Part shown: positions 28,931 to 46,549 of the stretch, piece by piece | Position numbering within the stretch: position 1 is the first letter of the stretch | How the letters are laid out: every line of letters begins with the position of its first letter | From: Iphinoe sp. HA4291-MV1 | Lineage (GTDB): Bacteria; Cyanobacteriota; Cyanobacteriia; Cyanobacteriales; Nostocaceae | DNA length: 64,000 bases | NCBI GenBank assembly: GCA_019359415.1 | Contig: JAHHHH010000003.1 | Coordinates: 1 to 64,000 of the forward strand | Direction of reading: 5' to 3' | Notes under the pieces: model-generated | Database searches by the model: none | The model's input: only the letters and a program-made list of their open reading frames with translations | What the model was told of the DNA's origin: nothing | Made by a program: the position numbers and the translations under genes

Positions 28931-29561
28931 GACGTTTGTGTAATTAATTCTGTTTAAGTAAGTAGGAGGACAAAAATAAACGAGTTCTGTAAAGAAGTAT
29001 TAAGGAAGTGAACGGGAATGCAATAGCAGATGATTTCGTAGGAAGGAGATTAACAATTCAAAATTCAATGTTGGCATCGATAGATTCAATTTCAAAGCCT
29101 TGAGACATAAGGCGTATTTTCTAAAATTTTCCACTACAGTATTGCTTTCATCTCACTGGTTTTTCTCCGTCGTTAAGTACTTTTTATACTCACTTGCCTA
29201 TGCTTTATTTTCCTTATTTGTCAAGTATAAACTATACTAATTTAGATGAGATTACCTTGGATTTAATAAAGCGCTTTTAATTATTTTTGTCGTGATGTAC
29301 TAGCTTAATCTTATTAAACCAAAATAAGTACTTTACTAACTCATATTTATTATCTATAATGGGAAAAAGTATTCAAATTTTGAATTCCGCCTTGCGGTAC
29401 TAGACATCTCCGAGTTAGACGTATATGGGCTGAAAGTTTTTGACAGTCTGCCATGAGAAAATCTCATAGCAAAGCATAAAAATCCTTATTCCTTCTGTCT
29501 TGACGATAGCTGCTTTATTTTCATCGCAGACATCCTTGAAATTCAGCAAAGGAAAAATACA
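28931..29561. promoter_or_regulatory. Gene-free leader of the diterpene operon
   Basis: About 630 bases, AT-rich in the right half, with no usable reading frame. It probably contains the operon promoter. A stretch near 29380-29460 (GAATTCCGCCTTGCGGTAC onward) is more GC-rich and hairpin-prone, with CCGCCTTGCGG as a short inverted repeat. I find no known riboswitch or operator. Confidence 0.4.
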
Positions 29562-31238
29562 GTGATTATTTCTTCAATAAAGCAAAGTCAGCGTACATTA
29601 GCCTTAATACGAGATATGGTATTGGCTTTACTGCAAGAGATGGTAGCTGACTATGATGAAAAGTGGGGTGGAGGGAAAATGTCCGCCGCTGCTTATGATG
29701 TTGCCTGGGTGGCTATGGTACGAGAGCCACATAATCCTGAACAGCTAGCTTTTCCAGACTCTTTCAACTGGCTTCTTAGGCATCAATCAATAGATGGTAG
29801 CTGGGGTTATCCACCTCAGATAGTACCTACCCTGGCGGGGCTTTTAGCTTTGCTAAAAGCCCCGCAGCAAACGGAATCAACTCGCTATGCTGCTAAGCGT
29901 GCTGAGGCTCACCTACAGACTGCGCTCAGACAATGGTCAGTCGCTAACCACGAAAGCGTTGCCTTTGAAATTTTAGTTCCAAAACATTTGGAAGAGCTGG
30001 AAAAGTTAGGTGTGGTGTTTGAGTTTCCAGATAAGGCTGAACTGTTAAAAATTTATCACCACAAGTTGAGCATTTGCTCCCCGGAACTCATTTACAGCGG
30101 CAAATCTGGACTGATTCATTCTCTAGAAGCTTTTGCTCCTTCTGTTGATTTTCAGCGCTTGAAGCCACTGCAGGCAGACAACGGTAGTTATGGCAACTCA
30201 CCTGCAGCTACTGCTGCTATTTTAATTCATCATAATCCAGAGTGGGATACGGTTGCTTTTGAGTGGCTACAACATTTATCGAATCAGGCTCGCAGGACTG
30301 GCGATCCGGGTGCTATGCCCAATGCTTATCCGATTGATGCTTTTGAGGGATCTTGGGTTTTATACAACCTTGTTCAAAGCGGGATCGATTTCAAAGAAGA
30401 AGCTTTTCGCTCAGTTGCCAAGAAGTTGTTAATTTGGTTGCAAGAAAGCATTACCCAAAAAGGAGCAAGCATCAGCCGATTGATAGGAATACCAACAGAC
30501 TCAGATGATACCGCAATGGTACTGGCGGCGCATAATTTGTTAGCTGACAAAATAGGAATGAAAACAGTTTCAGTGGACTGTTTACAGAACTTTGAGCGCG
30601 ACACTTACTTTACTTGCTTTGAATTGGAAAGAGATATTTCTTTAAGCGCCAACGCTCATGTGCTAGCAGCCTTGTTAAGCATGTCTACTCCTTATAATTG
30701 GGTTGTAAAAAACAACAGTGTTAACAAAGTAATTGACTACCTCTACAGCACAAAAAACGGTGCTGGTTACTGGGAAGACAAGTGGCATCAGAGTCCTTTT
30801 TACGCTACAGCAACTGCAACAATGGCTTTAGCACAACACCCATCCCCATCCGTACGAAATCAGTTGCAACTAACAGTTGAATGGGTTTTAGCAACTCAGT
30901 CAGCAAAAGACGGTGGTTGGGGCATGAATGGTAGTGAATGCTCAACGCTGGAAGAGACAGCTTACGCTCTTCAAATTTTGAATACTGTTAAGCAAAAACT
31001 AATAGAAAAAACACGACCAACAACCCAAGCAAGCATAAGCCAAACCATTAGAAGGGGTGTGAACTATTTATGGCAGCATTTGGATGAATTGAGTTCTAGT
31101 ACAGAAATAGCCGGAAATCCGAGATTACCCCGTCTATGGCGAGGTAAAGAGTTGTATTTGCCTTCACGGGTAGTATTTTCGGTAGTACTAGCAGTGCTGT
31201 ATCAGGTTTTTGCAGATGAGCAAGTTGTTCCTAGATAG
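29562..31238 (+). CDS. Class II diterpene cyclase (copalyl diphosphate synthase type)
   Basis: 558 residues, GTG start. It has the double alpha-barrel text of class II terpene cyclases: AAYDVAWVA near residue 44, HQSIDGSWGYPP (about 74-85), and the general-acid motif DSDD at 313-316 in PTDSDDTAMVL. The later repeats DKWHQSPFYATATA and KDGGWG also fit. The DDxxD of class I enzymes is absent. It should protonate geranylgeranyl diphosphate and cyclise it to a bicyclic (labdadienyl/copalyl-type) diphosphate; stereochemistry cannot be read. A perfect 14-base hairpin lies in the coding sequence at 29835-29865. First gene of the operon; the P450 starts 23 bases after it. Confidence 0.85.
   Translation: MIISSIKQSQRTLALIRDMVLALLQEMVADYDEKWGGGKMSAAAYDVAWVAMVREPHNPEQLAFPDSFNWLLRHQSIDGSWGYPPQIVPTLAGLLALLKAPQQTESTRYAAKRAEAHLQTALRQWSVANHESVAFEILVPKHLEELEKLGVVFEFPDKAELLKIYHHKLSICSPELIYSGKSGLIHSLEAFAPSVDFQRLKPLQADNGSYGNSPAATAAILIHHNPEWDTVAFEWLQHLSNQARRTGDPGAMPNAYPIDAFEGSWVLYNLVQSGIDFKEEAFRSVAKKLLIWLQESITQKGASISRLIGIPTDSDDTAMVLAAHNLLADKIGMKTVSVDCLQNFERDTYFTCFELERDISLSANAHVLAALLSMSTPYNWVVKNNSVNKVIDYLYSTKNGAGYWEDKWHQSPFYATATATMALAQHPSPSVRNQLQLTVEWVLATQSAKDGGWGMNGSECSTLEETAYALQILNTVKQKLIEKTRPTTQASISQTIRRGVNYLWQHLDELSSSTEIAGNPRLPRLWRGKELYLPSRVVFSVVLAVLYQVFADEQVVPR
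29835..29865 (+). repeat. Perfect 14-bp hairpin inside the cyclase gene
   Basis: GCGGGGCTTTTAGC, loop TTT, GCTAAAAGCCCCGC. It codes for AGLLALLKAP in the cyclase frame, so it is tolerated as a short helix. Its form is that of an inserted palindromic repeat; it could also slow transcription or translation early in the operon. Confidence 0.8.
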
Positions 31239-31261
31239 GCTATAGAGAGAGTAGTAAGAAT

Positions 31262-32728
31262 ATGGAAATCAAAGAAGGTTATTTTAAACAACAGCAAACT
31301 AAACAACAGCAAACTTTAAAAAACTCAGATACAGCACGGAAGCATCAAATCAATCACCCATCTATTTTTGACTCTTCCCTCACACCAAAAACCTGCCCTG
31401 TCATACATGGATATCCATTTGTTGGTGTCTTACCTGAGTTATTGCATAATCCTCTGCGGTTGTTCCAACGAGCCGTCAAAAAGCACCCAGGCGAGTTAGT
31501 TGCACTGAAATTAGGACCTATCCAGGCTCATTTAGTCACTTATCCTGACCATGTTCAACACGTATTGAACGATAATTGGCAGAATTTCGGCAAGGGTGAG
31601 ATCATGTGGAAGCCAATTCGGCAAGTGATGGGCAAAAGTTTGATGACGAGTCAGGGCGAAAGCTGGTTTCGCAGTCGGCGCTTAATGCAGCCAATGTTCA
31701 CAGCCAAGCAAGCCAATGCTTTGACGGAACTTTTAGTCAAGATCATCGCTTCGGAGCTTGCACGTTTTGAAAAAGTAACAGACGGTGGAGCAATCGACAT
31801 GGAAAATGAAATGGCGCTGCTCACACAAAACGTTATCTTAGGTGTCCTATTCAGTTCAAGTATCGACCGCTTTAGAACTGAAACTCTGGCTAAGGCACTA
31901 AAGGTTCTGGTGCGAGAAGTCAGTCGTCGTGTGTTCCTTTGCGTTCTCCCGAAGCAATTTTCAATACCAGGAGAGAGAGCTTTTCGCAACGCTATCCAGA
32001 CCACTGATAATACAATTCTCACTATCATTCGCGCTAGACGTCAAAGTGGTTTGAACTACGGCGACCTACTTGAGCGGTTGCTGCAAGCCCGCGATGAAGA
32101 AAGCAAGACTGGGATGAACGACCAACAACTGCGAGACGAGAGCATCACGCTTTTTCTAGCTGGCAATGAAACTACGTCTACCACACTAACATGGGTCTGG
32201 TATCTGCTTGACAAACACCCTGAAGTGGAGGGCAAACTGCGAGCAGAGATTGACGCTGTCATTGGCAAACGCCAACCAACTTGTGTTGACGTCGCCAAAC
32301 TACAGTACACCAAGATGGTTATCCAGGAAGCTATGCGGCTCTATCCACCTGGCTGGTTCTTAGCGCGAGTCGCCCAAGAGGATGATGTTATCGATGGTTA
32401 TGCGCTCAAAGCAGGAACTACAGTTTTGCTCTGTCCATATATAACCCATCGTCTGCTTAAGTTGTGGGATCGACCGGAAGTTTTCGATCCAGAACGATTT
32501 GCCCCAGAACACTTTACACAGCGACATTCTTACAGTTACTTTCCATTTGGTGGTGGACCGCGCTATTGTATCGGCAAACACCTCGCTCTTTTAACAACAC
32601 AATTGACTGTCGCCATGATGGTGCAGAAGTACCGACTACGATGCGTCCCTGGACATCCTGTCGAGGCGTTGCCTGGGATCACTCTCCGTCCGCGCTACGG
32701 TTTACGAATGACTGTGGAACCAGTTTGA
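31262..32728 (+). CDS. Cytochrome P450
   Basis: 488 residues. Oxygen-activation helix AGNETTST (300-307), ExxR at E356-R359 (EAMRLYPP), and the haem loop FPFGGGPRYCIGKH with ligand C436. There is no membrane anchor, as usual for bacterial P450s. The PFGGGPRYCIG form resembles eukaryote-like bacterial families such as CYP110/CYP120 of cyanobacteria. Lying between the two diterpene synthase genes, it most likely oxidises the diterpene skeleton made by them. The first 35 residues are Gln/Lys-rich and not conserved in type; translation from a later start is unlikely because no suitable Met follows. Confidence 0.9.
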   Translation: MEIKEGYFKQQQTKQQQTLKNSDTARKHQINHPSIFDSSLTPKTCPVIHGYPFVGVLPELLHNPLRLFQRAVKKHPGELVALKLGPIQAHLVTYPDHVQHVLNDNWQNFGKGEIMWKPIRQVMGKSLMTSQGESWFRSRRLMQPMFTAKQANALTELLVKIIASELARFEKVTDGGAIDMENEMALLTQNVILGVLFSSSIDRFRTETLAKALKVLVREVSRRVFLCVLPKQFSIPGERAFRNAIQTTDNTILTIIRARRQSGLNYGDLLERLLQARDEESKTGMNDQQLRDESITLFLAGNETTSTTLTWVWYLLDKHPEVEGKLRAEIDAVIGKRQPTCVDVAKLQYTKMVIQEAMRLYPPGWFLARVAQEDDVIDGYALKAGTTVLLCPYITHRLLKLWDRPEVFDPERFAPEHFTQRHSYSYFPFGGGPRYCIGKHLALLTTQLTVAMMVQKYRLRCVPGHPVEALPGITLRPRYGLRMTVEPV

Positions 32729-32804
32729 TGTCAACAACACAGAGAGTTGTAAGAAGATGGCGAGTGATTTAGAATAACAGCAGAATTTAAAAAATACAGT
32801 TGCC

Positions 32805-33824
32805 GTGAGTGAACTTTCTGGTATTCCACTAGTAGATCGCGCCCATGTGCTGCAAACTGCGCTATCCATTTATCCAGAAGTGGAAAACTGGGTAGCACAG
32901 TTTACGGTGATTCTACCGCAACGGATAGCAGGAACATGTTTGGCAATAGCCGCAACAGCCCCTCATGCACAACCATCTGTCATTGTTGAGGTGTCTGTTA
33001 TATCGCTAATCTTATTCGCTGTGGATGATTTGGGTGACATCACCGAAAGTTTTCTGGATATGACACTGACAGTTGAAGAAGTAGAGGTCATGTTAACGCT
33101 GTACGTGAAGCTTGTTCAATCAGGTGGTAACTCAACTTATCGTGATTATCCAGATTTAATCAAAGTATTTTCTACAATTAATGAGGCGCAGCCCTGGATG
33201 CAGTTAGCCAATGCTTTGACGAAATTTTGCCAAGAATTGCAAAAATTCCCAGCTGCTACGATTTATTACGGTATATTAGCAAAACATTTTGAGTTAGCTC
33301 TGGAGGCTCAACGCACAGAATTACACTGGAGCCAAGCTTTCAAGGAAACGGGAACTTACTCTACTTATGAACAATATCTCCTAAATGGTAGAAAATCCAT
33401 AGCAGCATCGACTGTCATGAGTTCGTTGCTAGCAATGGTGGGTGAACCTGTCGATTCAGAATTTAGCCTAAAGCCTCACGCCAACCTGGAGACTCTCATA
33501 GATGAAGTGATGCTAACTGCTTGCAGTAGCATTCGATTAGCTAATGATATACGCTCCTTCGAGCGCGAACGCCAAGCTCAAAAGCCAAATAGCCTCCTAA
33601 TTTTAATGTTGACTCAGGGTTTTAGCCAGAAAGAGGCTGAAGCGATCATTCTCAAAGAAATAAATACATACCTGCAAAAGATGGAGACTCCGATTTCTTT
33701 GTTACCGCCTAGTCTGAGTGCTTGGGGAGATACTGTAAGAAGATTATGCTGGTTCTCGTGTGCTTGGTATCAAACCAGGGAATTTCACGATTTTACGAAA
33801 CAGATGCTGGCGGCTTTGCGCTAG
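32805..33824 (+). CDS. Class I terpene synthase (diterpene synthase candidate)
   Basis: 339 residues, all-helical, starting with GTG at 32805. The metal-binding motifs of class I terpene synthases are present: the first Asp-rich motif DDLGD (74-78, in FAVDDLGD, a true DDxxD) and the NSE triad NDIRSFERE at 247-255. It should ionise the bicyclic diphosphate from the class II cyclase and finish the carbon skeleton, as KS does after CPS. No Walker-type or prenyltransferase FARM/SARM pair is seen. Third gene of the operon, 77 bases behind the P450, with a terminator shortly after. Confidence 0.82.
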   Translation: MSELSGIPLVDRAHVLQTALSIYPEVENWVAQFTVILPQRIAGTCLAIAATAPHAQPSVIVEVSVISLILFAVDDLGDITESFLDMTLTVEEVEVMLTLYVKLVQSGGNSTYRDYPDLIKVFSTINEAQPWMQLANALTKFCQELQKFPAATIYYGILAKHFELALEAQRTELHWSQAFKETGTYSTYEQYLLNGRKSIAASTVMSSLLAMVGEPVDSEFSLKPHANLETLIDEVMLTACSSIRLANDIRSFERERQAQKPNSLLILMLTQGFSQKEAEAIILKEINTYLQKMETPISLLPPSLSAWGDTVRRLCWFSCAWYQTREFHDFTKQMLAALR

Positions 33825-33888
33825 TAATCCAAGTTGGGAGTTATCAATATAAGACAGCATAAACAGCAATTGTTTCATTCAGCATATG

Positions 33889-33915
33889 CCCCTCCAAGTT
33901 TTCTGACTGGAGGGG
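33889..33915 (+). terminator. Terminator of the diterpene operon
   Basis: Perfect arms CCCCTCCA (33889-33896) and TGGAGGGG (33908-33915) around 11 bases, followed by ATTTTATTG. It lies 65 bases after the class I synthase stop, a good intrinsic terminator. The glycosyltransferase gene further on would thus need its own promoter. Confidence 0.75.
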
Positions 33916-34098
33916 ATTTTATTGCTTTAGTGACCCAAGCGATCTGATCGCCTTCTCAGTAGCCTAGACGTTACGTGTATGCCCTGCGGGCACACTTTGC
34001 ACTTATGGCAGTACCCCGAATCGCGATCGCCTACGGCGGGCGCTCTGCGCCATCGCAATTTTGCGTAATTAGTGTCAATATACCATTTGCGGAAGTAA

Positions 34099-34343
34099 TT
34101 ATATACCTTTTTCTAGTTGGGGAAAGTCTAGTAGTAGCATTCGCCACGCATAACTCGCGTAAGCAGTATAGAAAATAGCGCTAATTACTCGTAGGTCAAC
34201 CGTTCGCGTGCCTCCCAGAAGAGCTAACGCACTCAGCATGCCGAAAGCATAGAAGGACGATCTGTTAGCTTTTCGAACGGGACAAGGGTCAATAGCAATC
34301 CCCACAGTTCATCAATGAAGTTGCTTGGATAAGATTTAGACAT
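34099..34343 (-). pseudogene. IS5-family transposase relic, frameshifted
   Basis: From an ATG at 34343 the minus strand reads SYPSNFIDELWGLLLTLVP and then stops. In the next frame it continues LLGGTRTVDLRVISAIFYTA and WRMLLLDFPQ, ending at 34099. Together this is a degraded N-terminal helix domain of IS5-type transposases (usual text YPSDLTDAQW..., GGRPRTVDLREVLNAIFY..., WRMLPxDFP). No DDE domain remains. Confidence 0.55.
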
Positions 34344-34476
34344 TGCTCTTGTAATACTGTCGCATTTTTATCTACTAAAAGATTATTATTACGGGAGTTT
34401 TTTGACTTTTTAAACACCATCTTAGTCTATACTTAACAACTAATCGCTATATTTTTTTACACATCATCAAATTCTT

Positions 34477-35796
34477 ATGCACATAACCATTTTGACTATT
34501 GGAAGCCGTGGCGATGTGCAACCATTCATCGCGCTTGCACTCGGCTTAAAACAAGCCGGACACATCGTTAGATTAGCAACCCACGCCAATTTTGAAGCGG
34601 AAATTCGCTCCTTAGGGTTAGAATTTGCACTACTTTCTTTCAACCCACAAGAAGAACTACAAAAGCAAGCTGGACAAGCAGTATTGCGAACGGGCAAAAA
34701 TCCAATCGCGTTCTTCCTCAATATAGCCAAAATGGCTAAACCGTATCTTGTAGGTTTGGTTAAAGAAGCCTGGGAAGCTTGCCAAGGAACTGATGCAACA
34801 ATAGTTTGCATCTGGCTGATGTTTGCAGCGTTGGATTATGTGGAGAAACTAGGTATACCTTTATATATTGCTGGATTCCAACCCACCATTCCGACACGCG
34901 CATTTCCAAGTCCCAACACACCGCCAGAATTAGAGCGCTTGGGAGTCATTTACAATCGCTTGACCTATTCGTTGATATTGTTTTTGTTATGGCAGTTGTT
35001 TAGTGAACCTATCAATTACTTTCGTAGTAGTGTGTTAAAATTACAGCCAATTTCCTTCTGGCAAGGTGCGTTGGGACGAATAAATTTTCGGAAATTACCG
35101 TTTCTTCATGCCTATAGCCGAGAAGTTGTCCCACCTCCACGTGATTGGTCTGAACATACACACGTAACTGGATATTGGTACTTAGATAAACCCACTAATT
35201 TTTCACCCCCACAAAATTTAGTTGATTTTCTCGCTGCGGGCTTACCTCCGGTTTACATCGGGTTTGGCAGCATGGTAGGCGATGCAGCGGAAGCTACCGC
35301 AGAAATAGCGCTTGCAGCGTTAGCGAAAACTGGACATAGAGGAATTTTTCTCAAGGGTTGGGGCGGAATTCGCGATGGGAACTTGCCAGATAACGTTTTT
35401 ATGATTGAATCGATACCCCACGACTGGTTATTTCCACAAATGGTATGTATCATTCATCATGGCGGTGCGGGAACAACGGCAGCAGCTTTCCGCGCCGGAG
35501 TACCTGGAATTGCAATACCATTTTGCTTTGATCAACCGTTTTGGGGATATCGTGCGGCGAAGTTAGGAGTTAGTCCCAAACCGATTCTCACCAAAGAATT
35601 AACGGTAGATAAGTTGGTATCAGCGATTGAAATAGCAGTACACGATAAAGCAATGCGGCAGCGTGCCTTGGCATTGAAGGAAAAGATTCGTGCGGAGAAT
35701 GGTGTTGCAGAAGCGGTGAGGATTTTTCATCGGTATTTGACGTGTACTAACTCAGAAAATCTTGAGGCAAAGAAACACAAAAACCCGGTTTCTTGA
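34477..35796 (+). CDS. UDP-sugar-type glycosyltransferase (GT1, MGT-like)
   Basis: 439 residues, GT-B fold. The N-terminal ITILTIGSRGDVQPFIALAL is typical of sterol-glucosyltransferase/rhamnosyltransferase-type GT1 enzymes. The C-terminal donor-site motif HHGGAGTTAAAFRAGVPGIA (about residues 325-345) with FCFDQPFWGYRAAKLG corresponds to the PSPG region. These enzymes glycosylate lipophilic small molecules. Its position 650 bases behind a diterpene operon, same strand, suggests but does not prove a diterpenoid acceptor. The last codons and the stop lie in a 29-base palindrome. Confidence 0.82.
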   Translation: MHITILTIGSRGDVQPFIALALGLKQAGHIVRLATHANFEAEIRSLGLEFALLSFNPQEELQKQAGQAVLRTGKNPIAFFLNIAKMAKPYLVGLVKEAWEACQGTDATIVCIWLMFAALDYVEKLGIPLYIAGFQPTIPTRAFPSPNTPPELERLGVIYNRLTYSLILFLLWQLFSEPINYFRSSVLKLQPISFWQGALGRINFRKLPFLHAYSREVVPPPRDWSEHTHVTGYWYLDKPTNFSPPQNLVDFLAAGLPPVYIGFGSMVGDAAEATAEIALAALAKTGHRGIFLKGWGGIRDGNLPDNVFMIESIPHDWLFPQMVCIIHHGGAGTTAAAFRAGVPGIAIPFCFDQPFWGYRAAKLGVSPKPILTKELTVDKLVSAIEIAVHDKAMRQRALALKEKIRAENGVAEAVRIFHRYLTCTNSENLEAKKHKNPVS

Positions 35797-35855: not shown

Positions 35856-38612
35856 CTACTGCCAATTTCCTACCAAAACGTAAGATGCCCAGTAATAAGG
35901 ATGAGGAGGTAAAGCTCTAATTTCTTCAAATGGGGGCTTTGTCTTAAGCGCTTCTATCAAAGATAATTGAGCTATCCTGAGTGCATCTGATTTTTTCTCT
36001 CCTGGTTTTTTTAAGTCTTGATAGAATTTACCCATCACTCCAGCCGTTGAAGCATCTCCCACAGGCCAGAGAGTCGCTAGAGTACTACGTGCGCCAGAAC
36101 GCACAGCAACTCCTGCCAAACCTAAGACAGCACGCTCATCACCAGTGGCGGTTTCGCAAGCACTCAGCACGAGTAGTTCCAAGTTTTTTTCTGCTTCTTT
36201 TAACAAAGCACTCAACTCATTGATACTGATACTTTTTCCATCTCCTGTAATAATAAAGTTTTTTTCAGGATTAGAACTGAACAGCCCATGAGTCGCTAAG
36301 TGGACAACAGGAAAATTGAATTTCAGTTGGTTTTGAATAGTTTTTGTGGTAAATTCTTGATTAAGAAGCTTCAAAGAAGAAGGAAAAGCTTCTTTGATTT
36401 CATTTAATTCTTTAGGCACGTTAGTTAGTGCAGGAAAAATCTCTTCTTGTACTTTGATCTGCTCACTAACTCCAGCTGCTAAAACCTTAAGCTGTTGCTG
36501 CTTGAGTCGTTTAGAGTCTACGAGTTGCAGACTTGGAACCAGAGCAACGCTATATTTCTCAATCAGATATTGTTGACCATCATAGAGTGCAGCCATTGGC
36601 ACTCTCTGCAATTGACCATTGAGCACAAAGACTAAATTTTTGACTTTGTTGGCATTTAACTCTGTCTCAAAAGGTTTGATTAACCAGTTATAAAGCTGTC
36701 CAAAAATTGGTAAAACCCTCTGGATATTTTCTTTTAATTCCTGTGGATCTGGGTTAGAAGTAGATAAGATGTTGCGAGCAGAAGTATTGACAGTTACGTT
36801 GTCTAAGTTATCATAAAGCCGATCTAAAATGTCATTAACTTTCTCCTCACTGATAGGAATTGCGACTTCTTGCAAGGGTTTTCCTGGCAAGGACAAGATA
36901 ACTTCTAAGCGCTCTTTTAAAACAATGGGATAGATCACAGCTGCTTGAGGATCGATATCATCAATCTGCACCGCGACATCCGTTTCCTCTGAACAGGGGT
37001 CTTGAAAAAAGTTGTCTAATTCTGCTAATTGTAGAGACTCTATCACCCTTCGAGCAAACTCTAAGCGGCTTTTAGGCTTGTTCGTCTCAATTTTTTCCTG
37101 CTTAATGCCAGAGTTCGACACGAGTAGGGTATTTAGCTCGCTTGGACTCAGCTCTGATTTCAAGACCAAATCCGCTAGTTCAGTATAAACAGGTTTGACC
37201 TCTTGGAGAAAGTTAAACTGGACATCTCGATTATTTGCGTTTAAATCGCTGCGGAGAGACTGGAGAGTGTTGAAGGCGGCTGTGTAAGCAGCAATTGCTC
37301 CTTTTGTATCTCCCTGTTCTTTCAGTAAATTCCCTAACTGAGATTGCCAAAGATAACTAATTTCACGTACATCTTTTGTAATTTTTTGTTCTGGAGCTAA
37401 AGCCAGAGCTTGCCGAGTTAGTTGAATTGCTTGATTTAACTGCCCCTGTTGATGGTATAATTTACCGAGATAACCTAGAGCATAGGTTTGTGCTTGCCTA
37501 TCTCGCAAGCTCAGAGCCTGTTCCAGCGCCACGTTCAAAATACGTTCAGCCTTGTCTGTCTGTTGGCTTTGCATCAAACCTTGAGCAAAGTTAATCTGAG
37601 CGTAGATTGCTGTGCGATTTAGAGGAAGAGTGGCAAGAGTGGATTCAATCTGACTTTGCAAATCTTGTGCATCTTGACTCAACTTCACCTCTAACTGGGA
37701 CAAAAAATCCTTTGCCCGTTCGACCAACTGAGATTCGCCAAACTTAGACCAAGAAGCAACGCGCCGATTCGTTTGCTCTTCCCACCATTTTTGCAGTTCT
37801 AGTAATAGCTTGAAGTGATTGAGTTGTGCCTGAATTTTAGAAATTGGTGAAGCTGATGTTACCGTTGCTGCTTGGACGTAGTCATTCAAAGCTTGTTGGT
37901 AAGGTGCTCTAGCCGCTTCTTGAGATTTGCGGTCTATAATTTCAGTGACCTCTTCATAGTCCCAACGGTCTCGTATTTGGTTTCCTAAAGCGCGTTCGGT
38001 GTTACCTAAACTCAGCAAAACAGCACTGGACTCCGGTGATTCCTTCAGGACTGACAAACTCAACTGCAAAACTTTCTTGGACTGCTTCAACAATCCTTGT
38101 TTTCGCAGGACTTCTCCGAGGCTATGTAAGCCAACAGCTTGGGTTGGTGAAATAGAATTTTGCTGTTGAGAGAGATTTGTGAGGAAGCTATCTATTTGTG
38201 CTTGGTTACAGTTTGGGTTATTAATGCTAAAAGCTTGGAGTAAAGTTTTGCAAGCTTTAGGATATAATCCTAAATCTTGAAGAGCTTGGGATTTGTTGAT
38301 CAGGCTCTTACTTATCCCTTCGCGATCGCCTATTTGCTTATAAGTCTCAGCTGCTTGTTCCCACAACTTAGCTGCTTCATCGAATTTTCCGGTATTGTAG
38401 AGTTCTTGACCTTCCCGTGCCAGTTGTAGCGCACGACTCGAAGAATTTTGAATTTTGTTTGTGTTGCGTGTCCTTTGGGCATATTCCGAATTATGACTCT
38501 TGAGTTCTGCACGGCTTGTATTCGACCAAGCTGAAAAACTTAAGGTGAACACCAGTCCAAACAAGACTAGAAGGATTAAGACAACTATACGACGGTACTT
38601 TCTCACAATCAT
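35856..38612 (-). CDS. TPR-CHAT protein (caspase-like protease)
   Basis: 918 residues with an N-terminal membrane anchor or signal (IVVLILLVLFGLVFTLSFSA), TPR-like repeats (about residues 60-480) and a C-terminal CHAT domain (about 620-918). The CHAT His-Cys dyad is visible as HLATHG and LVLSACETATGD, followed by VRSGARSTLATLWPVGD. CHAT proteins are caspase-fold cysteine proteases. The gene follows the TpsB gene by 46 bases on the same strand; this TPS-CHAT linkage is common in cyanobacteria. Substrate unknown; a protease acting on or regulated by the secreted TpsA partner is possible. Confidence 0.88.
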   Translation of the reverse strand: MIVRKYRRIVVLILLVLFGLVFTLSFSAWSNTSRAELKSHNSEYAQRTRNTNKIQNSSSRALQLAREGQELYNTGKFDEAAKLWEQAAETYKQIGDREGISKSLINKSQALQDLGLYPKACKTLLQAFSINNPNCNQAQIDSFLTNLSQQQNSISPTQAVGLHSLGEVLRKQGLLKQSKKVLQLSLSVLKESPESSAVLLSLGNTERALGNQIRDRWDYEEVTEIIDRKSQEAARAPYQQALNDYVQAATVTSASPISKIQAQLNHFKLLLELQKWWEEQTNRRVASWSKFGESQLVERAKDFLSQLEVKLSQDAQDLQSQIESTLATLPLNRTAIYAQINFAQGLMQSQQTDKAERILNVALEQALSLRDRQAQTYALGYLGKLYHQQGQLNQAIQLTRQALALAPEQKITKDVREISYLWQSQLGNLLKEQGDTKGAIAAYTAAFNTLQSLRSDLNANNRDVQFNFLQEVKPVYTELADLVLKSELSPSELNTLLVSNSGIKQEKIETNKPKSRLEFARRVIESLQLAELDNFFQDPCSEETDVAVQIDDIDPQAAVIYPIVLKERLEVILSLPGKPLQEVAIPISEEKVNDILDRLYDNLDNVTVNTSARNILSTSNPDPQELKENIQRVLPIFGQLYNWLIKPFETELNANKVKNLVFVLNGQLQRVPMAALYDGQQYLIEKYSVALVPSLQLVDSKRLKQQQLKVLAAGVSEQIKVQEEIFPALTNVPKELNEIKEAFPSSLKLLNQEFTTKTIQNQLKFNFPVVHLATHGLFSSNPEKNFIITGDGKSISINELSALLKEAEKNLELLVLSACETATGDERAVLGLAGVAVRSGARSTLATLWPVGDASTAGVMGKFYQDLKKPGEKKSDALRIAQLSLIEALKTKPPFEEIRALPPHPYYWASYVLVGNWQ

Positions 38613-38658
38613 ATCAATTCCAGTTAAAAATCATTCTTTCTGATTCCCCATTCTGGTT

Positions 38659-40524
38659 TCAGAACGGTCTGTACTGTAGTTGAAAATACACACCATTTTC
38701 TTGCCATGTCCCATCTCTCAAATTAATATCTATTAGAGGAATACCCCAGTCCAAACGAGCCGTGAAGTTATCCCCCATCTGCCAGAGTAAACCGAATCCT
38801 ACACCCACTAGGGTATTGGGGTCTGGACCGTCTCCACTTGTGTTCCAGCCAGTGCCAAAATCAATGAATGGTGTAACCTGTAAAGTTCCTTGCACCTCTG
38901 GTACTCGGAAGATAGGTAATCGTGCTTCTACAGAAGCAAAAACACCATTGTCAGTGAGCAGAGCATCCTGACGATAACCCCTCACAGTTGCTTGACCTCC
39001 CAAACTGAACTGCACTCGGGAAAGTAAAGAATCACTTGCTAGTTGAATGTTTGAACGGACTAACAAGTTAGGACCCACAGCAGGCTTACCTGTCGCCTCT
39101 CCTAGACGGCGCAAATACAGCATTTGCCCTCGCCAAAGGAAAAATTGACTGTCCGGTTCGCTGTTGTTAATAGTGGCATCAAAAGCACCGATACCAACAC
39201 TAAATTCAGAACGAGCAGCTAAAACATCTTGACGGCTCCGTTGGAGCCATTCTTGAGCAAAATTCAGTTCCGAAATACGGGTTTTTCCATTGACGTCTGC
39301 TCCTGGGAATAAAGGAAAGTCAACTCCAAAAATCGAGGCATCACTTTCTCGCCTAGCTGCTGTAAAACTGAGGGCAAATTCTTGGCTGCGTTGTGGAGTA
39401 GCTGTTTGAATAATTGGTTGGCGAAAAGTGAGTTCAAACTCGCTAGAGTCTACCTCAATATCTAAATCGTTGAAAGGGGGTTCAACGATGTTATTGTTAG
39501 TTATCTGGTAATCGAAGCGTAGGGTACCATTACGGGGATTGACTGGCAGAGTGTAACTACCCTCAAACCTATTGCTGCCATCGGTATTGCTATAGGCAAA
39601 ACTCAACTTATCTCCCAGTCCTAGGAGGTTAGCTTCCGATATCTCGACACCGCGTTCAAAACTCCCAACGCCAGGGTTGCGGTTATTATCGATTCTGAAT
39701 TCGGTGCTGAAGGTTTTTGCTCCCCGAAGCGTTACCTCTAGAGAATTCGTACCAGGTTTAGTGCCAGCAGTTAGTTCCGCATCTAAGCTTTCAATTAAGG
39801 GGTTAAGTTGCAACAATTGCAGTGCTTCTTGTAGGCGGTTGATGTTGAGGGGTTTTGAGGTTGCCAAAGCAATGCGACTGCGAACATAGTTTGAATTCAA
39901 CCGCCCTTTAGCGATATTGATCTTAATCTCTTCCAAGCTACCTTCAAGTACCTGAATCTTGACGATACCTGATTGGATTTCTTGACTGGGTATGTAGGCA
40001 CCAGAAGTGATGTAGCCCTTTTTGAGATAAAGCTCAGTCACTTTATTAGCAGCTTGCAAGAGTTGGTCAAAACTGATAGATTCCCCAATAAAGTCAGCCG
40101 TCACCTGATTTAACTCTTCTTGGCTAAATACAGTGCTACCGACAAACTCAAACCTCTGAACAACAATCATCCTAGGCACATTCTGGATTTTCTCATAAGC
40201 TGGAGGCGCAGTCGGAGGTAGTCGGAGTGGTTTTTTTTGTGGGGGAAGTGGAGTAAGCTGAGGTTGTTCTGGGGGAATTGGGGTAACGCGATCGATAGGC
40301 TGCGCCCAAGCAGGAGGTGTGTGAGAGAGTATGACGAGTAGGGGGAGGAAGAGGAGGGCGAGATAGGGAGATTGGGGGATGGGGGGCTTCGGGGAGGGAG
40401 TGAGGGAGAGATTCCTAATTTTGACTTTTGACTTTTGACTTTTGAATTGATTTGTCCCCTTGTCCTCTTGTCCCTTGCCCCTTGCCCATTGCCCATTGCC
40501 CCATAACTTCGATTTAATGAGCAT
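38659..40524 (-). CDS. TpsB outer-membrane transporter (ShlB/FhaC family)
   Basis: 621 residues. A proline-rich linker (about 80-120) and POTRA domains (about 130-280, with FVGSTVFSQEELNQ) precede a 16-strand-type barrel that ends in Phe (QLQYRPF), with FHA-transporter motifs such as LSFAYSNTDGSNRFEG and GGQATVRGYRQDALL (the VRGY lid loop). It exports the TpsA protein encoded directly upstream; the two genes overlap by 11 bases. The first 50 or so residues come from short tandem repeat DNA, ahead of the signal-like stretch YLALLFLPLLVILSHTPPAW; no other start codon exists before the POTRA region. Confidence 0.88.
   Translation of the reverse strand: MLIKSKLWGNGQWARGKGQEDKGTNQFKSQKSKVKIRNLSLTPSPKPPIPQSPYLALLFLPLLVILSHTPPAWAQPIDRVTPIPPEQPQLTPLPPQKKPLRLPPTAPPAYEKIQNVPRMIVVQRFEFVGSTVFSQEELNQVTADFIGESISFDQLLQAANKVTELYLKKGYITSGAYIPSQEIQSGIVKIQVLEGSLEEIKINIAKGRLNSNYVRSRIALATSKPLNINRLQEALQLLQLNPLIESLDAELTAGTKPGTNSLEVTLRGAKTFSTEFRIDNNRNPGVGSFERGVEISEANLLGLGDKLSFAYSNTDGSNRFEGSYTLPVNPRNGTLRFDYQITNNNIVEPPFNDLDIEVDSSEFELTFRQPIIQTATPQRSQEFALSFTAARRESDASIFGVDFPLFPGADVNGKTRISELNFAQEWLQRSRQDVLAARSEFSVGIGAFDATINNSEPDSQFFLWRGQMLYLRRLGEATGKPAVGPNLLVRSNIQLASDSLLSRVQFSLGGQATVRGYRQDALLTDNGVFASVEARLPIFRVPEVQGTLQVTPFIDFGTGWNTSGDGPDPNTLVGVGFGLLWQMGDNFTARLDWGIPLIDINLRDGTWQENGVYFQLQYRPF
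40385..40505. repeat. Short tandem repeats encoding the TpsB N-terminus
   Basis: TTGACTTTTGACTTTTGACT (three copies of a 7-base unit plus a partial) and CCCTTGCCCCTTGCCCATTG-type units, with CTCCCTCC tracts before them. All lie inside the tpsB reading frame. Confidence 0.7.
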
Positions 40525-43036
40525 GGCACGATGATGAGGTCAACAATTCAGAAGCGTTGGGGGTAACTATGGGGGGATTAGCAGTGAGAATCACAGTACC
40601 TTTTGAGTTAACATACCAACCTTGAGCTGGAGGCGGTAACTCTGAGGTATCCGCTTCCTCAACAATAGGCATCATTGAATAAGAGATATTTCCTGGTTGG
40701 GAAGGCTCAAAACTTACTAAAGCTTTACTGCTGAGTGGTTCGCTGGGTCGGGGTGGCAATCCTCCGCGCCCGGTGATAATAAACTCACTCCTATTCTGTT
40801 CCTTTTTTGCGGTACATACCCGCGCCACGACTTCTTCAGGTTGAACTATTTCTTGTGGCACGTCGATCGCTTCCTGGTTGGCTTCAATATCTGGTGTGAT
40901 AAATTGTACGGCACCATCTAATCCGAATTGGGAACTGGCAGAAATCTGGCATTCTGGGCAAACAAATAATCCTTGAGTGTTGATTTGGATGTTTCCTCCT
41001 CTCCCCTCAAAAGCATTGGCGGTAATTTTGCTATTTTCTAGCAACACAACAAAATCAGCGGAAGGAGAGCCAGTAATAGTGATGTTACCGCCGTTACCAG
41101 TTCCACCTGCTTGTGCTGAAATCTGACTACCGTGGCGCATTTGTAACGAACCTGTTTGGAGGGTGATGTTACCACCTTCACCAGATTGCGTGGCTGCTGT
41201 GATACTACCTCCGCTATCCAGTAAAATAGAGCGAGCATTTATTGTGGCGGTTCCTGCATTACCTGACCCCTGATTCCTCACAGTCACTTGACCACCATCC
41301 GTGACCCTCAACTGACCTGTATTAATTGTCACGTTTTGTGCTGCCCCACTTGGCACTGCAGGCAAGCGAAAAGCCTCTCGTAAGCTTTCATCCTGTATAA
41401 TGGCGGAGGAGCCAATCAAACTCGGATTTATAGATCCTGGTACTGTACCTTTCACTTCTACAAATTCAGGAGCATTGATGATAACATTGCCAGCTGAACC
41501 ACTTGCAGAAGTAGAAGTATCGACCCTTCCTCCATCCCGAACTGTCAATCTTGGTGTATTGACTCTTAGGTCACCAGCATCTCCAGTAGTATTTGTGGTA
41601 GCAAAAAAACCGCTAGGTATAAACAACTGAGGTTCGACGCCAATAATTTCTATAGAATCAGTGGCATTTACGTTCAGATTTCCTCCGTTACCTGTTCCAA
41701 AAGTGGTAGATATGATGGTTCCTCCTCCAGTAGCGGTCAAACGTCCAGTAGACACCGTAGTGTTGCCTGAATCTCCAGAACCATAAGTGGCAGTTATGAT
41801 AGAACTGGAAACGCTAGGATTAACAGCACTTACTCCATTTACTTGTACCGACTCAGAGGCATTGATATTGATATTTCCGCCTGTTTCCGAACTAAAGGTT
41901 TTCGGAAAGATGGTAGCTCCTCCCTCTACAACTAAGCGCTTGGTTGAAATATTGATGTCTCCTCCTCTACCCGCTCCCACTGTTTCATTCGTTAAGCTGC
42001 TCCGAATGTTTCCATCTGCATTGGTTCCGCTCAATTTTACAGACTCTGTGGCGTTTACTTGAATCGCGCCTGCGGGTTGGATTCCTTGATTTTGAATCAA
42101 AACGAGCGAGCCATCGCTGACGGAGAAGTTTTGCCCCTGCACCTGAATTGAACCGCCGCTAGCACCGCTAGCATCTACTAAAGCTTGCGATCGCATTTCA
42201 ATATCTTTAAAAGCACGCACGCCCTCATACCCCAAAGTCCACCCACCCAAAGTGGGATTGAGACTCACCTGACCTTCTGCTACACTGGCTAACTCTACTC
42301 GTCCTCCTTCTGCTGTCAGAGTACCTCCGTCTATACTGATATTGCCCCCAACCAAAGCCAAGGTCTGATTGGGCTGTACCCGCAGACCTGTTGAGGTATT
42401 GGTTCTCATTACAGGTGAGAAGTTGGGATCGGCAACAGTGAAAGCTTGACTCGTACCTTGTACGCGAATTGTTCCCGAATTCTGCCCAAATTGCAAACCG
42501 ACTGGAACACTGATAGTCAGTAGAGGGGGAGTTTGAGGATTTGTGGCGCTAAATTCCACACCATCGGCAAATTTGATGCTACTCGCGGTACTACCTAAGA
42601 AAGAACCGCCAATATTCAATTGGGCATTGGGACCAAAATTAATGCCGTTTGGATTAATCAAAATGAAATTAGCACCGTAATTTTCTTTGATTAATCCATC
42701 AATATTGGAAATTGAGCCACCTGTTACTCGGTTGATAATGTAGTTAATGTTATTAACATTTGTCGTATTTTTAAAAAAAGCCTCGCTGCCAGTTGGAATA
42801 GAGAATTCCTTGAAGCTGTGAAATAGATTTCTACCAGCTTGTGCTCCTCCGGTAATTTCAAAGACATTGCCAGACCGACTGACATTTGTTGGAACACTTC
42901 CATCTGAAGAAATTTGCGCTTGAACAGGGCTACTGATTAGTAGACAGTAGAGGTAAACAACGCCAGCTACAGTTCGCAGAGTAACGTTTGAAAACACTGG
43001 GGGGAGTGGAGGGAGTAGACAGAGAAATGTTTTCAT
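40514..43036 (-). CDS. TpsA filamentous haemagglutinin-type exoprotein
   Basis: About 840 residues from the ATG at 43036 (MKTFLCLLPPLPPVF); the frame is open to 43102. After a signal peptide ending near SSPVQAQ comes the two-partner-secretion domain (about 45-290) with NGANFILINPNGI-like text (here NFILINPNGINFGPNAQL and NIGGSFLGSTAS), then Gly/Ser/Asn-rich beta-helix repeats to about residue 720. It should be exported by the TpsB encoded next and act at or beyond the cell surface. The C-terminal region has Cys-containing text (FVCPECQISASSQF) common to cyanobacterial members. Confidence 0.88.
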   Translation of the reverse strand: MKTFLCLLPPLPPVFSNVTLRTVAGVVYLYCLLISSPVQAQISSDGSVPTNVSRSGNVFEITGGAQAGRNLFHSFKEFSIPTGSEAFFKNTTNVNNINYIINRVTGGSISNIDGLIKENYGANFILINPNGINFGPNAQLNIGGSFLGSTASSIKFADGVEFSATNPQTPPLLTISVPVGLQFGQNSGTIRVQGTSQAFTVADPNFSPVMRTNTSTGLRVQPNQTLALVGGNISIDGGTLTAEGGRVELASVAEGQVSLNPTLGGWTLGYEGVRAFKDIEMRSQALVDASGASGGSIQVQGQNFSVSDGSLVLIQNQGIQPAGAIQVNATESVKLSGTNADGNIRSSLTNETVGAGRGGDINISTKRLVVEGGATIFPKTFSSETGGNININASESVQVNGVSAVNPSVSSSIITATYGSGDSGNTTVSTGRLTATGGGTIISTTFGTGNGGNLNVNATDSIEIIGVEPQLFIPSGFFATTNTTGDAGDLRVNTPRLTVRDGGRVDTSTSASGSAGNVIINAPEFVEVKGTVPGSINPSLIGSSAIIQDESLREAFRLPAVPSGAAQNVTINTGQLRVTDGGQVTVRNQGSGNAGTATINARSILLDSGGSITAATQSGEGGNITLQTGSLQMRHGSQISAQAGGTGNGGNITITGSPSADFVVLLENSKITANAFEGRGGNIQINTQGLFVCPECQISASSQFGLDGAVQFITPDIEANQEAIDVPQEIVQPEEVVARVCTAKKEQNRSEFIITGRGGLPPRPSEPLSSKALVSFEPSQPGNISYSMMPIVEEADTSELPPPAQGWYVNSKGTVILTANPPIVTPNASELLTSSSCHAH

Positions 43037-43473
43037 GTATGGAGGTGGCGAATCCGCCGTGAGGTCTGTTGTTGGATATGCGGCTCTCATACCAAGTCGC
43101 ACATCAAACCGTAAAATCGTAGTGCGGGCAAGATGCCCGCGCTAAAACGAGACAATTGCCTTGCCCGCATGCAAACCAAATGCTTGCACTACAAAGTTAA
43201 GTAGACTTGGTATCAGAATCCAAGCAAAAGAAGTAGCCGGAAGTATATCCAACTACTAAGTCTTTAAGGGCAGCAGGCAGACGAACCAGCTGATTCAATA
43301 GCACCCTGTTTTCATTTAAATAAAGTAAATTTTCACACCCTGTTTAATACCAAACAATGGTAATCTTCACTTAAGCATAAGTTTTGATATTAAACCTAAG
43401 TAAATTTAACTAAAAGCGACATCATAGAGTCTATATTCAAGTGTAAACCCACGTCAAGATAGGAAGTCAACTG
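43037..43473. promoter_or_regulatory. Divergent promoter gap with an AGA-loop hairpin
   Basis: Lies between tpsA and the COP23 gene. A hairpin GCGGGCA-AGA-TGCCCGC is at 43124-43140, with related text GCCCGCATGC further on. The right half is AT-rich (43310-43430) and likely holds the COP23 promoter. No gene is seen. Confidence 0.5.
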
Positions 43474-44004
43474 ATGAACAAAATGCAATTTTGGACAACG
43501 ACTTGGACAACTCCGATGTTGGTTTTAGGCTTTGTAGTATCACTCACTCAACCCAGCACAGCCAATACCGCGAACATTAGCTGTAACACCAACGCCAGTA
43601 TACCAACAGTGATTGCTACCTCTACCGAACAGGGAATAGGGAAAGATGTTACAATCCTCAGCTTCCTCCCCGAATATTTTTCACCCAAAGATGCTGTGCA
43701 GAACTGTCAGAATACAGCTAAAACTTTGCAGACTCTTTACAATACGAATCGTGCAAACTACTTGACAAATGACAAAGTCAATTCAAGATCTGTCGTGTGC
43801 GTTGTAGAACGTAGGGGTATCGGTTGCGATCGCGATAGTACCCAAGTTTTATTTACTCTCGGTTCAACAGTTAACTCCTCTCAAGCTTTATACCAAATGC
43901 TGGGTAGCAATTTTAAGCAAGCACAGCCTCCTGATGCTAGGACTGTCAGTCGAATTTACTCTGATCTCAAACCCAAATCTCATAGTCGTTGGTGGTTCTT
44001 CTAA
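43474..44004 (+). CDS. COP23-domain exported protein
   Basis: 176 residues with a signal peptide (MLVLGFVVSLTQPSTA region) and a COP23 domain, named after a circadian-oscillating protein of a unicellular cyanobacterium. Family features: a Cys near the mature start (ISCNTN), CQNTAKTLQTLYNTN, VVCVVERRGIGCDRDSTQVL and LFTLGSTVN. Four cysteines suggest two disulfides in the periplasm. Function unknown. It converges on the TPR protein gene. Confidence 0.85.
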   Translation: MNKMQFWTTTWTTPMLVLGFVVSLTQPSTANTANISCNTNASIPTVIATSTEQGIGKDVTILSFLPEYFSPKDAVQNCQNTAKTLQTLYNTNRANYLTNDKVNSRSVVCVVERRGIGCDRDSTQVLFTLGSTVNSSQALYQMLGSNFKQAQPPDARTVSRIYSDLKPKSHSRWWFF

Positions 44005-44014
44005 TGTAATGAGA

Positions 44015-46048
44015 TTATGTTCCGCAATTCATTTTTGCTGTCTTTGCTGCCTGATAATCTGACTTGAGTTTGAGAGCTTCTTCAAGGGCGATGTGCGCTT
44101 TTTTGATTTCAGATAACCGACAGAATGTCAATCCCAGATAGTACCAAGTTTCGGCTTTTTGAACTTGTTTCAGCTTAGATACATTTAGCATCTGGTTAAA
44201 TTGAGCAGTTGCTTCATCGTATCGTCCCAAGCCCTGAAGCGCTATACCTCGACCTCGTTGAGCAGCAAAATAATTTGGATTGTATGCTAACGCTTGGTCA
44301 TAGGCTTTCAGGGCTTCTCTGTATTCTGGCTTTTGCAATAACACCTTACCTTTATGACTAAAAGCAACCGATAAATTTCTCTGACTAGTTTCTTTTTCTT
44401 TAATCGGTTCAAAAAGTTTAATTGCTTCGTCAATGACTGCAAGTGCTTTGTCAGTTTTCTTCTTTGCTAGCAGTGATTCAGTTTTGTTAATCCAGAAAAC
44501 AGGGTCTTTCGAGTCGAGCGCAATGGCTTCATCAAAAGCAGCGATCGCCTGATCGTATTGCTTGAGGTTATGTAATGCCTCTCCTTTGCAATTCCAAGCA
44601 TACACTGCCTTCAGCTCAATGATAGTTGCTGCAGAACAGGATTCGAGCATCTTGTTGTATTCCTGTAAGCTACCTAGTGCATAGCCTCGGTTAGTCCAAG
44701 CTTGGTAGTAGTTACTATCAATTTTTAAAATCTCGTTGTATTTCGTGATTGCCTCTTGAGATTTTCCTTGGTAGTATAATTGGTTAGCTTGTTGAAAAAG
44801 AATTTCCACCTCTGAATGCCCAAAAAGATTAGAGCGAATGACATTAACGCCAAGGAAGACCAAGCCGACTATTCCCAGTGAAACCCAAATGCGTCTAAAA
44901 ATTGCGTTTCTAGGATTGGAAATAGTGTTTGTTCCCTTTAAGGGAGCACTTTCTGGAACTGGTTTGCTTTGAGCACTTCTGGTTGATTCTGAAAGTGAAG
45001 GCTGAAGGCTTTTCTCTAATTCTTGAGTCACCCAATTCAAAGAAAAAACAGATTGGTAAATACGATTAGAGACTTTTAACTTATCTTCCTGTTGTATAAT
45101 CAATCCCAAATTCAGCAGTTCTGCTTGTACAAGACTCCCGTCTGCTGGAACTTCTCCCAGAGACAAGATTTGTTGGTACAGCCGCAGTAGTAGTGGGGGA
45201 TCGCACTGCTTATTTCGAAAAAGCCCCTCCTGAATCGCCTTCAAATGCTCAGATGCTGCTTGAGTTTCCCAATGACTAATCAAGCAAGTTCGTACTAGCT
45301 GCTCTACTGTTGCTGCTTCCTCACCAGCGGGAATAAAAGCTTCAAACTCAGCAAGCAACTGACAAAGCTTTTGGTTAAAAAACGGCTGAGCACCTGTCCA
45401 TGACAAGACCTCTTCTAGCAAAATGTCTGGGCGGCTGGCTTTTTCACCTAATTTGAATAAAGGTTGTAAACGTGCTAACTCTTGGTCAATCCAACTTTGA
45501 TTAAAAACAGATTGGTAAATACGATTAGAGATTTTTAACTTATCTTCCTGTTGTATAATCAATCCCAAATTCAGCAGTTCTGCTTGTACGGGACTCCCGT
45601 CTGCTGGAACTTCTCCCAGAGACAAGATTTGCTGGTACAGCTGCTGTAGGGATAAAGAGTTGCACTGCTTATTTCGAAAAAGCCTCTCCCGAATTGCCTT
45701 CAAATGCTCAGATGCTGCTTGAGTTTCCCAATGATTAATTAAGCGAGTTTGCACTAGCTGCTCCACTGCTGCTGCTTCCTCACCAGCACCAATCAAAGCT
45801 TCAAACTCAGCAAGCAATTGACAAAGCTTTTGGGTGAGAAACGGCTGAGCACCTGTCCATGACAGAATCTCTTCTAGCAAAATGTCTGGGCGACTGGCTT
45901 TTTCATCTAATTTGAATAATTTAATCGTGCTGCGGTTAAATGGTCGTAAATGTGTGAATTCTGGAATCACTCCACTTTGATGAAAAGTTGATTGATAAAT
46001 GTGATTAGGGATTTCTGACTTGTCTTCCTGTTGCACGACCAATTCCAA
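44015..46048 (-). CDS. Duplicated AAA-like/TPR protein, 5' truncated
   Basis: 677 codons from a TTG. The protein starts in the middle of a module: about 154-residue units (ASRPDILLEEVLSWTGAQPF, EHLKAIRERLFRNKQC, QAELLNLGLIIQQEDK) occur as one partial and two full copies, residues 1-350. These resemble the C-terminal winged part of cyanobacterial AAA-like (STAND-related) proteins, whose ATPase domain is absent. A membrane span follows (about 385-403), then a TPR array (about 420-677). Homology to the unit starts at about 46085, before any possible start, so the true 5' end is lost. Confidence 0.65.
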   Translation of the reverse strand: MELVVQQEDKSEIPNHIYQSTFHQSGVIPEFTHLRPFNRSTIKLFKLDEKASRPDILLEEILSWTGAQPFLTQKLCQLLAEFEALIGAGEEAAAVEQLVQTRLINHWETQAASEHLKAIRERLFRNKQCNSLSLQQLYQQILSLGEVPADGSPVQAELLNLGLIIQQEDKLKISNRIYQSVFNQSWIDQELARLQPLFKLGEKASRPDILLEEVLSWTGAQPFFNQKLCQLLAEFEAFIPAGEEAATVEQLVRTCLISHWETQAASEHLKAIQEGLFRNKQCDPPLLLRLYQQILSLGEVPADGSLVQAELLNLGLIIQQEDKLKVSNRIYQSVFSLNWVTQELEKSLQPSLSESTRSAQSKPVPESAPLKGTNTISNPRNAIFRRIWVSLGIVGLVFLGVNVIRSNLFGHSEVEILFQQANQLYYQGKSQEAITKYNEILKIDSNYYQAWTNRGYALGSLQEYNKMLESCSAATIIELKAVYAWNCKGEALHNLKQYDQAIAAFDEAIALDSKDPVFWINKTESLLAKKKTDKALAVIDEAIKLFEPIKEKETSQRNLSVAFSHKGKVLLQKPEYREALKAYDQALAYNPNYFAAQRGRGIALQGLGRYDEATAQFNQMLNVSKLKQVQKAETWYYLGLTFCRLSEIKKAHIALEEALKLKSDYQAAKTAKMNCGT
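45049..45966 (-). repeat. Tandem 459-base coding duplication
   Basis: 45049-45507 and 45508-45966 are near-identical over long stretches, for example CAGATTGGTAAATACGATTA at 45049 and 45508. The spacing of 459 bases is 153 codons, so the frame is kept. Confidence 0.8.
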
Positions 46049-46050
46049 AT

Positions 46051-46317
46051 TCAGCAGTTTTGTTTGTATAAGATTTTGAAGCGAACCCCTGGATTATGTC
46101 CATAGAGTTCTAACGGGTAATGCTGTGAGTTTATGTTTTTAGGTTCAGCCACCAGAAGCCCTGCATGGTATACGAAGTATCGATACCTGGATGAATGGCT
46201 AACTTGCCTAACATATTTCCAATAACGGTAGTCATCCTCGGATGACAGATTACTGAGGCTAATGACGTAACTGTCAGCCCACAGTTTACACCCAGAGGGC
46301 GTCAGTGTATGGATCTG
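46051..46317 (-). pseudogene. Unidentified gene remnant upstream of the truncated TPR gene
   Basis: An 88-codon frame without ATG that reads like protein (LWADSYVISLSNLSSEDDYR, then YWKYVRQVSHSSRYRYFVYH and LLVAEPKNINSQHYPLELYG) and ends exactly where the truncated TPR frame begins. I do not recognise the family. It may be the DNA that replaced the missing 5' end. Confidence 0.35.
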
Positions 46318-46329
46318 TCACGAATCAAT

Positions 46330-46370
46330 GAACAATTGATAATTGATAATTGATAATTGATTGGTCACGT
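46330..46370. repeat. Tandem AATTGAT units
   Basis: Units TTGATAATTGATAATTGATA repeated about four times, short tandem repeat type. Confidence 0.6.
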
Positions 46371-46549
46371 GTAGTTTATTACTAGCATGATGATATGCTA
46401 TCATAGGTTGTACTCAATAATCACATGCAATACAGTTCGGTTAAAACCAAAACCAGGTAAACTAAGCGTTGTACCCTAAGTGTAATTGGCAAAAAATGTA
46501 ACTCAAAGAATTCTCTTGCTCGCCTCGATACAAACTGAACATCAGTGTG

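Follow-up and report, generated by a model that had tools for sequence, protein, structure and literature searches.

The question raised by this locus is whether three genes arranged head to tail on the plus strand (29562-33824), encoding a class II diterpene cyclase, a cytochrome P450 and a class I terpene synthase, form one pathway to an oxidised diterpenoid, and whether the glycosyltransferase gene that lies beyond them takes part in it. The window, here the whole stretch of 64,000 nucleotides analysed, comes from a cyanobacterial genome (7.36 Mb in 140 contigs) that is called Brasilonema-like, the genus as delimited here including Scytonema tolypothrichoides VB-61278 and Brasilonema sp. 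UFV-L1. Judged from their sequences, the three genes most likely specify a copalyl diphosphate synthase (CPS)-type class II enzyme, a class I enzyme and a P450 acting in series (probability about 0.7), and the locus very probably makes an oxidised diterpene. From the genes present, their motifs, conserved order, selection and orthology we infer the substrates, the order of steps, the stereochemistry and the nature of the product as follows. Geranylgeranyl diphosphate (GGPP) would be supplied by a prenyltransferase encoded elsewhere in the genome, which has three polyprenyl synthases, none within the window. The class II cyclase would protonate GGPP and close the first two rings; the resulting diphosphate would be of the copalyl type and probably ent-configured. 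Its ionisation by the class I synthase, which is orthologous to tolypothrichol synthase, would give a diterpene hydrocarbon or alcohol for oxidation by the P450. In two cases, the window lineage and Brasilonema sp. UFV-L1, a later-added glycosyltransferase may then glycosylate the product.

The class II gene (29562..31238, plus strand) was identified from its ORF, Pfam and PDB profile matches and alignment, and encodes a 558-residue CPS-type protein with a DSDD motif at residues 313-316 and the pair His186/Asn254. It is followed after 23 bases by the P450 gene (31262..32728, plus strand; 488 residues, haem Cys436; Pfam p450, E 6.7e-90), also recognised through its orthologues, and, after a further 76 bases, by the class I gene (32805..33824, plus strand; 339 residues), assigned to the tolypothrichol synthase family by ORF, Pfam, PDB match and orthologues, with DDLGD at residues 74-78 and an NSE motif at 247-255 (N247, S251, E255). 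The catalytic residues listed in a preliminary description of this DNA (DSDD, C436, DDLGD and NSE) are all in place, as is the first of its two spacings, 23 bases; the second had been given as 77. Beyond an insertion, a plus-strand ORF (34477..35796) with Pfam support encodes a 439-residue GT-B glycosyltransferase that has a GT28-like N-terminus and an EryCIII-like/UDPGT C-terminus and that comparison marks as a lineage-specific companion. The Pfam matches, SQHop_cyclase_C, p450, Terpene_syn_C_2 and, for the glycosyltransferase, Glyco_transf_28, EryCIII-like_C and UDPGT, are each above the curated cut-off.

Conservation extends upstream of the class II gene, across 29399..29561 (plus strand). 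When the five other carrier loci were compared with the window by blastn, homology began at 29399-29418 in four of them and, in UFV-L1, mainly at 29507, with a weak 80-base piece at 29432. The window class II gene starts with GTG, a codon that the six-locus alignment shows in one further carrier, the remaining four having ATG; it is preceded by a conserved AAAGGAAA-like stretch that resembles a ribosome binding site. Pairwise dN/dS lies between 0.19 and 0.54 in every one of 33 comparisons, which cover the class II, P450, both types of class I (see below) and glycosyltransferase genes; all these genes are under purifying selection. Since the same gene order recurs in other genomes and dN/dS is in this range, the locus is not a chance assembly, and it is real and very probably functional.

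Among the 193 genomes of the family compared, the source genome included, a full-length homologue of the class II cyclase is present in six: the window genome (G000), Brasilonema sp. UFV-L1 (G124), Scytonema tolypothrichoides VB-61278 (G011), Scytonema sp. NIES-4073 (G058) and two designated G089 and G018. Class II matches occur in 126 genomes, the other 120 being weak and confined to residues 364-518, the part that Pfam recognises as squalene-hopene cyclase; within the genus, three of eight genomes carry the gene. In the public genome collection, a scan picked up three loci, the counterparts of those in UFV-L1, NIES-4073 and S. tolypothrichoides. At all six loci the class II gene lies ahead of a class I gene on the same strand, and the P450 gene is present at five, with products 81-84% identical to that of the window in four of the five other carriers; S. 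tolypothrichoides has no P450 match at E<=1e-60 anywhere in its genome. The class I gene of the window type occurs in four of the 193 genomes (G000, G124, G058 and G011; 78-88% identical to each other), as one copy each and always downstream of the class II gene. G089 and G018 have, at that position, a different class I synthase (80% identity between the two, 22-27% to the window type), which matches Terpene_syn_C_2 and has an NSE-like motif and D-I-R-L-D instead of DDxxD. The set first proposed, a class II cyclase, a class I diterpene synthase and a P450 on one strand, is one that relatives keep together. The refuting condition set in the preliminary description, that homologous loci consistently lack the P450 or the glycosyltransferase, gives a split result: the P450 is present at five of six loci, and the glycosyltransferase, found in G000 and G124, is absent from the four others.

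The diterpenoid genes are part of a longer block. The window from 29.4 to 46.1-46.4 kb matches G058, G011, G089 and G018 in the same order, and the G124 contig stops next to the CHAT gene. Besides the diterpenoid genes the block holds a CHAT-TPR protein gene and three further large ORFs (together 35856-46426) whose appearance, the Pfam scan having covered CHAT-TPR alone, suggests a transporter of the ShlB type, a protein resembling filamentous haemagglutinin and a TPR protein. Ranked by CHAT match, the six carriers take exactly the first six places among the 193 genomes (85-100%), and the next (77%) is G144, which has no class II match; the diterpenoid gene set consequently travels, or is inherited, with the CHAT block.

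The best PDB profile matches of the class II cyclase are the copalyl diphosphate synthases 8V0F (193 bits) and 9Q3I (175 bits), presumably both fungal, followed by the ent-CPS 5BP8, which we take to be bacterial. The chains of 8V0F and 9Q3I, at 959 and 987 residues, contain more than a class II part, and the position of Asn254 is occupied by Ser in both. In an alignment with the chloroplast (plant) ent-CPS 3PYA, His186 falls on its LHS motif and Asn254 on its PNV motif, so that the designation CPS-type made in the preliminary description is borne out by both the matches and the retained His-Asn pair. The pair is characteristic of ent-CPSs that serve gibberellin biosynthesis, bacterial as well as plant, is dispensable for ent-CPP formation as such, and when lost gives a hydroxylated product (PMC11469919). 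Across the six loci the Asn is always kept and the His in five; the DxDD motif of the other five reads DSDD or DGDD. In NIES-4073 (L039:11383-13101) Phe replaces the His, and since this residue belongs to the catalytic pair the product there may be different. With Phe in NIES-4073 and no Asn at the equivalent place in 5BP8, the pair is neither uniform among the six loci nor required for ent-CPP. The class II proteins of G011 and G124 are 46% identical to that of the window over alignment columns 300-339 and 62-79% over columns 340-579, against 82-98% in six segments of columns 60-299; by this alignment the gene appears in two versions or as a mosaic.

Further class II-like sequences were noted in two of the carriers. 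G018 has a second homologue (L038:7428-9122), 58% identical to the window protein, in which DxDD reads HSDN and the His-Asn pair is lost; its role as a protonating cyclase is probably gone. In NIES-4073 two adjacent P450-like ORFs (L042:1-6689) lie ~3 kb from a weak class II-like match (G058:C1:2900648-2900965). Searched with the class II protein, the window genome has no second, squalene-hopene-cyclase-like match, which all seven other genomes of the genus do have; an assembly gap may account for this.

The sole significant PDB sequence match of the class I synthase is 9KGB (E 1.9e-170), an entry titled 'Crystal structure of tolypothrichol synthase', the next match (E 0.067) being a nanobody. 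The product name is taken from this title alone. The 9KGB sequence is that of the S. tolypothrichoides gene product across all 336 aligned residues. Over its whole length, the window protein shares 79% identity with this enzyme. The two are encoded downstream of orthologues of the same class II gene, and by sequence and genomic place the window enzyme is a full-length orthologue of tolypothrichol synthase. The S. tolypothrichoides locus differs from the window in having neither P450 nor glycosyltransferase, and its synthase starts with the leader peptide of the P450. Because the Asp-rich motif of 9KGB (DDITED), unlike DDLGD in the window, is three residues shorter than in the other three members, the products of the two synthases may differ. 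The class I enzyme had been described as 'KS-type', a label that its sequence does not support: no kaurene synthase is found among its eight PDB sequence matches at E<=1, a comparison that covers kaurene synthases of known structure. The statement that no known product could be assigned to the gene set likewise needs amending, since an enzyme 79% identical to the window's class I synthase is named after a product, tolypothrichol.

The class I gene has a history of its own. In a tree of the four genes G058+G124 is the preferred grouping (bootstrap 87), and the class I genes reject G011+G124 (p-AU 0.0014), the grouping backed by CHAT and class II genes, both of which reject the two other groupings; the class I genes are compatible with the third grouping (p-AU 0.14). 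G058 and G089 are closely related, with CHAT proteins that are 96% identical, but have P450s that are only 82% identical and class I genes that are unrelated. Close to their starts, the P450 and class I genes of G058 share an identical stretch of 22 bases; the corresponding match comes to just 13 bases in UFV-L1 and to 9 in the window. In G011 the class I protein (L040:8782-9852) opens with the first residues of the P450, as expected if recombination between the two leader copies removed the P450 gene; it was probably lost there, with the repeated leader marking the site. A DDE transposase gene lies just downstream of the S. tolypothrichoides synthase, and near it (L040:7543-7580) a 38-base piece of the window insertion recurs with 89% identity. 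A tentative reading, which we hold at a little under even odds, is that the locus is an exchange cassette in which a front end of one class II cyclase and one P450 keeps its chromosomal position while unrelated class I synthases replace one another downstream, so that the same copalyl-type intermediate would lead to different skeletons in sister cyanobacteria, with the repeated leader at the P450 and class I starts serving as the site of cutting and joining. With one class II enzyme throughout, a P450 that is mostly the same and two unrelated class I enzymes, the six comparable loci amount to a natural experiment on which enzyme determines the skeleton and on whether the P450 tolerates both, and NIES-4073 and G089, so similar in CHAT and so different in class I, provide a clean comparison.

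The same features could be taken to mean that class II and class I enzymes are neighbours that do not act in series, the class I synthase using GGPP directly and the class II cyclase serving a separate product. The discordant class I tree would fit this, as would the finding that an unrelated class I gene can occupy the same place, and the name tolypothrichol is silent on whether the substrate is CPP or GGPP. Set against this is the placement of the window-type gene, single-copy and behind the class II gene in every one of its four carriers among 193 genomes, a count that for the other class I type extends to the six loci only, and we consider separate action unlikely. A different objection is that the window class I gene is a relic. 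The N-terminal leader of three relatives survives in the window as a remnant (32757..32804, plus strand) interrupted by a stop codon (32775-32777), 27 bases before the GTG and in frame with it. The 339-residue core is, however, complete, and dN/dS against three relatives is 0.27-0.31; the 9KGB chain, which has 336 residues in the structure library and 377 in the sequence file and aligns from residue 22, matches this core without the leader. A relic is thus very improbable. The leader is probably dispensable and, to judge from the two chain lengths, disordered in 9KGB; as it holds a stop in the window, the protein should start at GTG 32805. Serial action of CPS-type cyclase, class I synthase and P450 remains the preferred reading, with the missing P450 in S. 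tolypothrichoides as one of the points against it.

Participation of the glycosyltransferase is more doubtful. In UFV-L1 its gene starts 70 bases after the synthase stop codon, on the same strand, and relative to UFV-L1, in which it is absent, the window certainly carries an insertion of ~590 bases between the two genes (33881..34468, edges approximate). Within it lies the hairpin 33889-33915, previously called a terminator; the stem is good and forms part of a 61-nt fold of -23.6 kcal/mol, but the hairpin is not listed by the terminator scan, whose sites are no more frequent than in shuffled sequence (5 found, 6.5 expected). The insertion had also been read as an IS5 relic. The basis for this doubtful minus-strand IS4/5-like element is one weak match to a transposase domain, DUF4096 (E 0.019), in one of four fragments, and as two plainly unrelated families score E 0.028 and 0.04 in the same scan, it is indistinguishable from chance. 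Between G000 and G124 the glycosyltransferase has a dS of 0.135, less than half of the 0.35-0.40 for class II, P450, class I and CHAT genes of the same pair, from which it looks like a recent arrival, acquired or exchanged later than its neighbours. This low value, pointing to a later and separate spread, the absence of the gene from four of six loci and its separation from the synthase by the hairpin-bearing insertion would all suit a passenger that does not act on the diterpenoid. So would its distribution: similar proteins (E<=1e-100) are encoded in 52 of the 193 genomes, three of them carriers and 49 without the class II gene. The close, same-strand placement in UFV-L1 and purifying selection (dN/dS 0.30, one pair) speak for a role in the pathway, and we regard a passenger as possible, with the balance tipping slightly the other way. 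A diterpene glycoside pathway would be expected to keep its glycosyltransferase, and here the gene is kept at two of six loci; the glycoside of the preliminary description is a weak suggestion, possible for the window and UFV-L1 only.

To our knowledge, few cyanobacterial class I/class II pairs have been described. Bacterial clusters for labdane-related diterpenoids combine a DxDD class II enzyme with an adjoining class I enzyme that has DDxxD and NSE motifs, and the window has both. It also shares with gibberellin-type ent-CPSs the His-Asn pair in LHS/PNV-like motifs, a mark of that type and not of all ent-CPSs. Gibberellin operons, with their kaurene synthase, have three P450s, a ferredoxin, an SDR and a GGPP synthase, whereas the window locus has one P450 and no prenyltransferase. 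CseDCS, from Ca. Sericytochromatia, a lineage that PMC11469919 calls cyanobacterial, likewise joins the class II His-Asn pair to class I activity, but is described there as one fused CPS-KS protein that makes ent-kaurene; the window enzymes are separate and the class I protein has no detected kaurene synthase match in the PDB. The tolypodiol cluster of strain HT-58-2 concerns another diterpenoid of a Brasilonema-like cyanobacterium, but was proposed from MEP-pathway and ubi genes, and the word copalyl is absent from the main text of that report (PMC8073705). The current view of plant terpene synthases is that they derive from bacterial diterpene enzymes of classes I and II that became fused (PMC11469919). 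On its sequences, the locus encodes a pathway of the copalyl diphosphate type that has one P450 and a class I enzyme like tolypothrichol synthase; this biochemistry is of a known kind, and it is the mixing of enzymes at a single site that is less ordinary.
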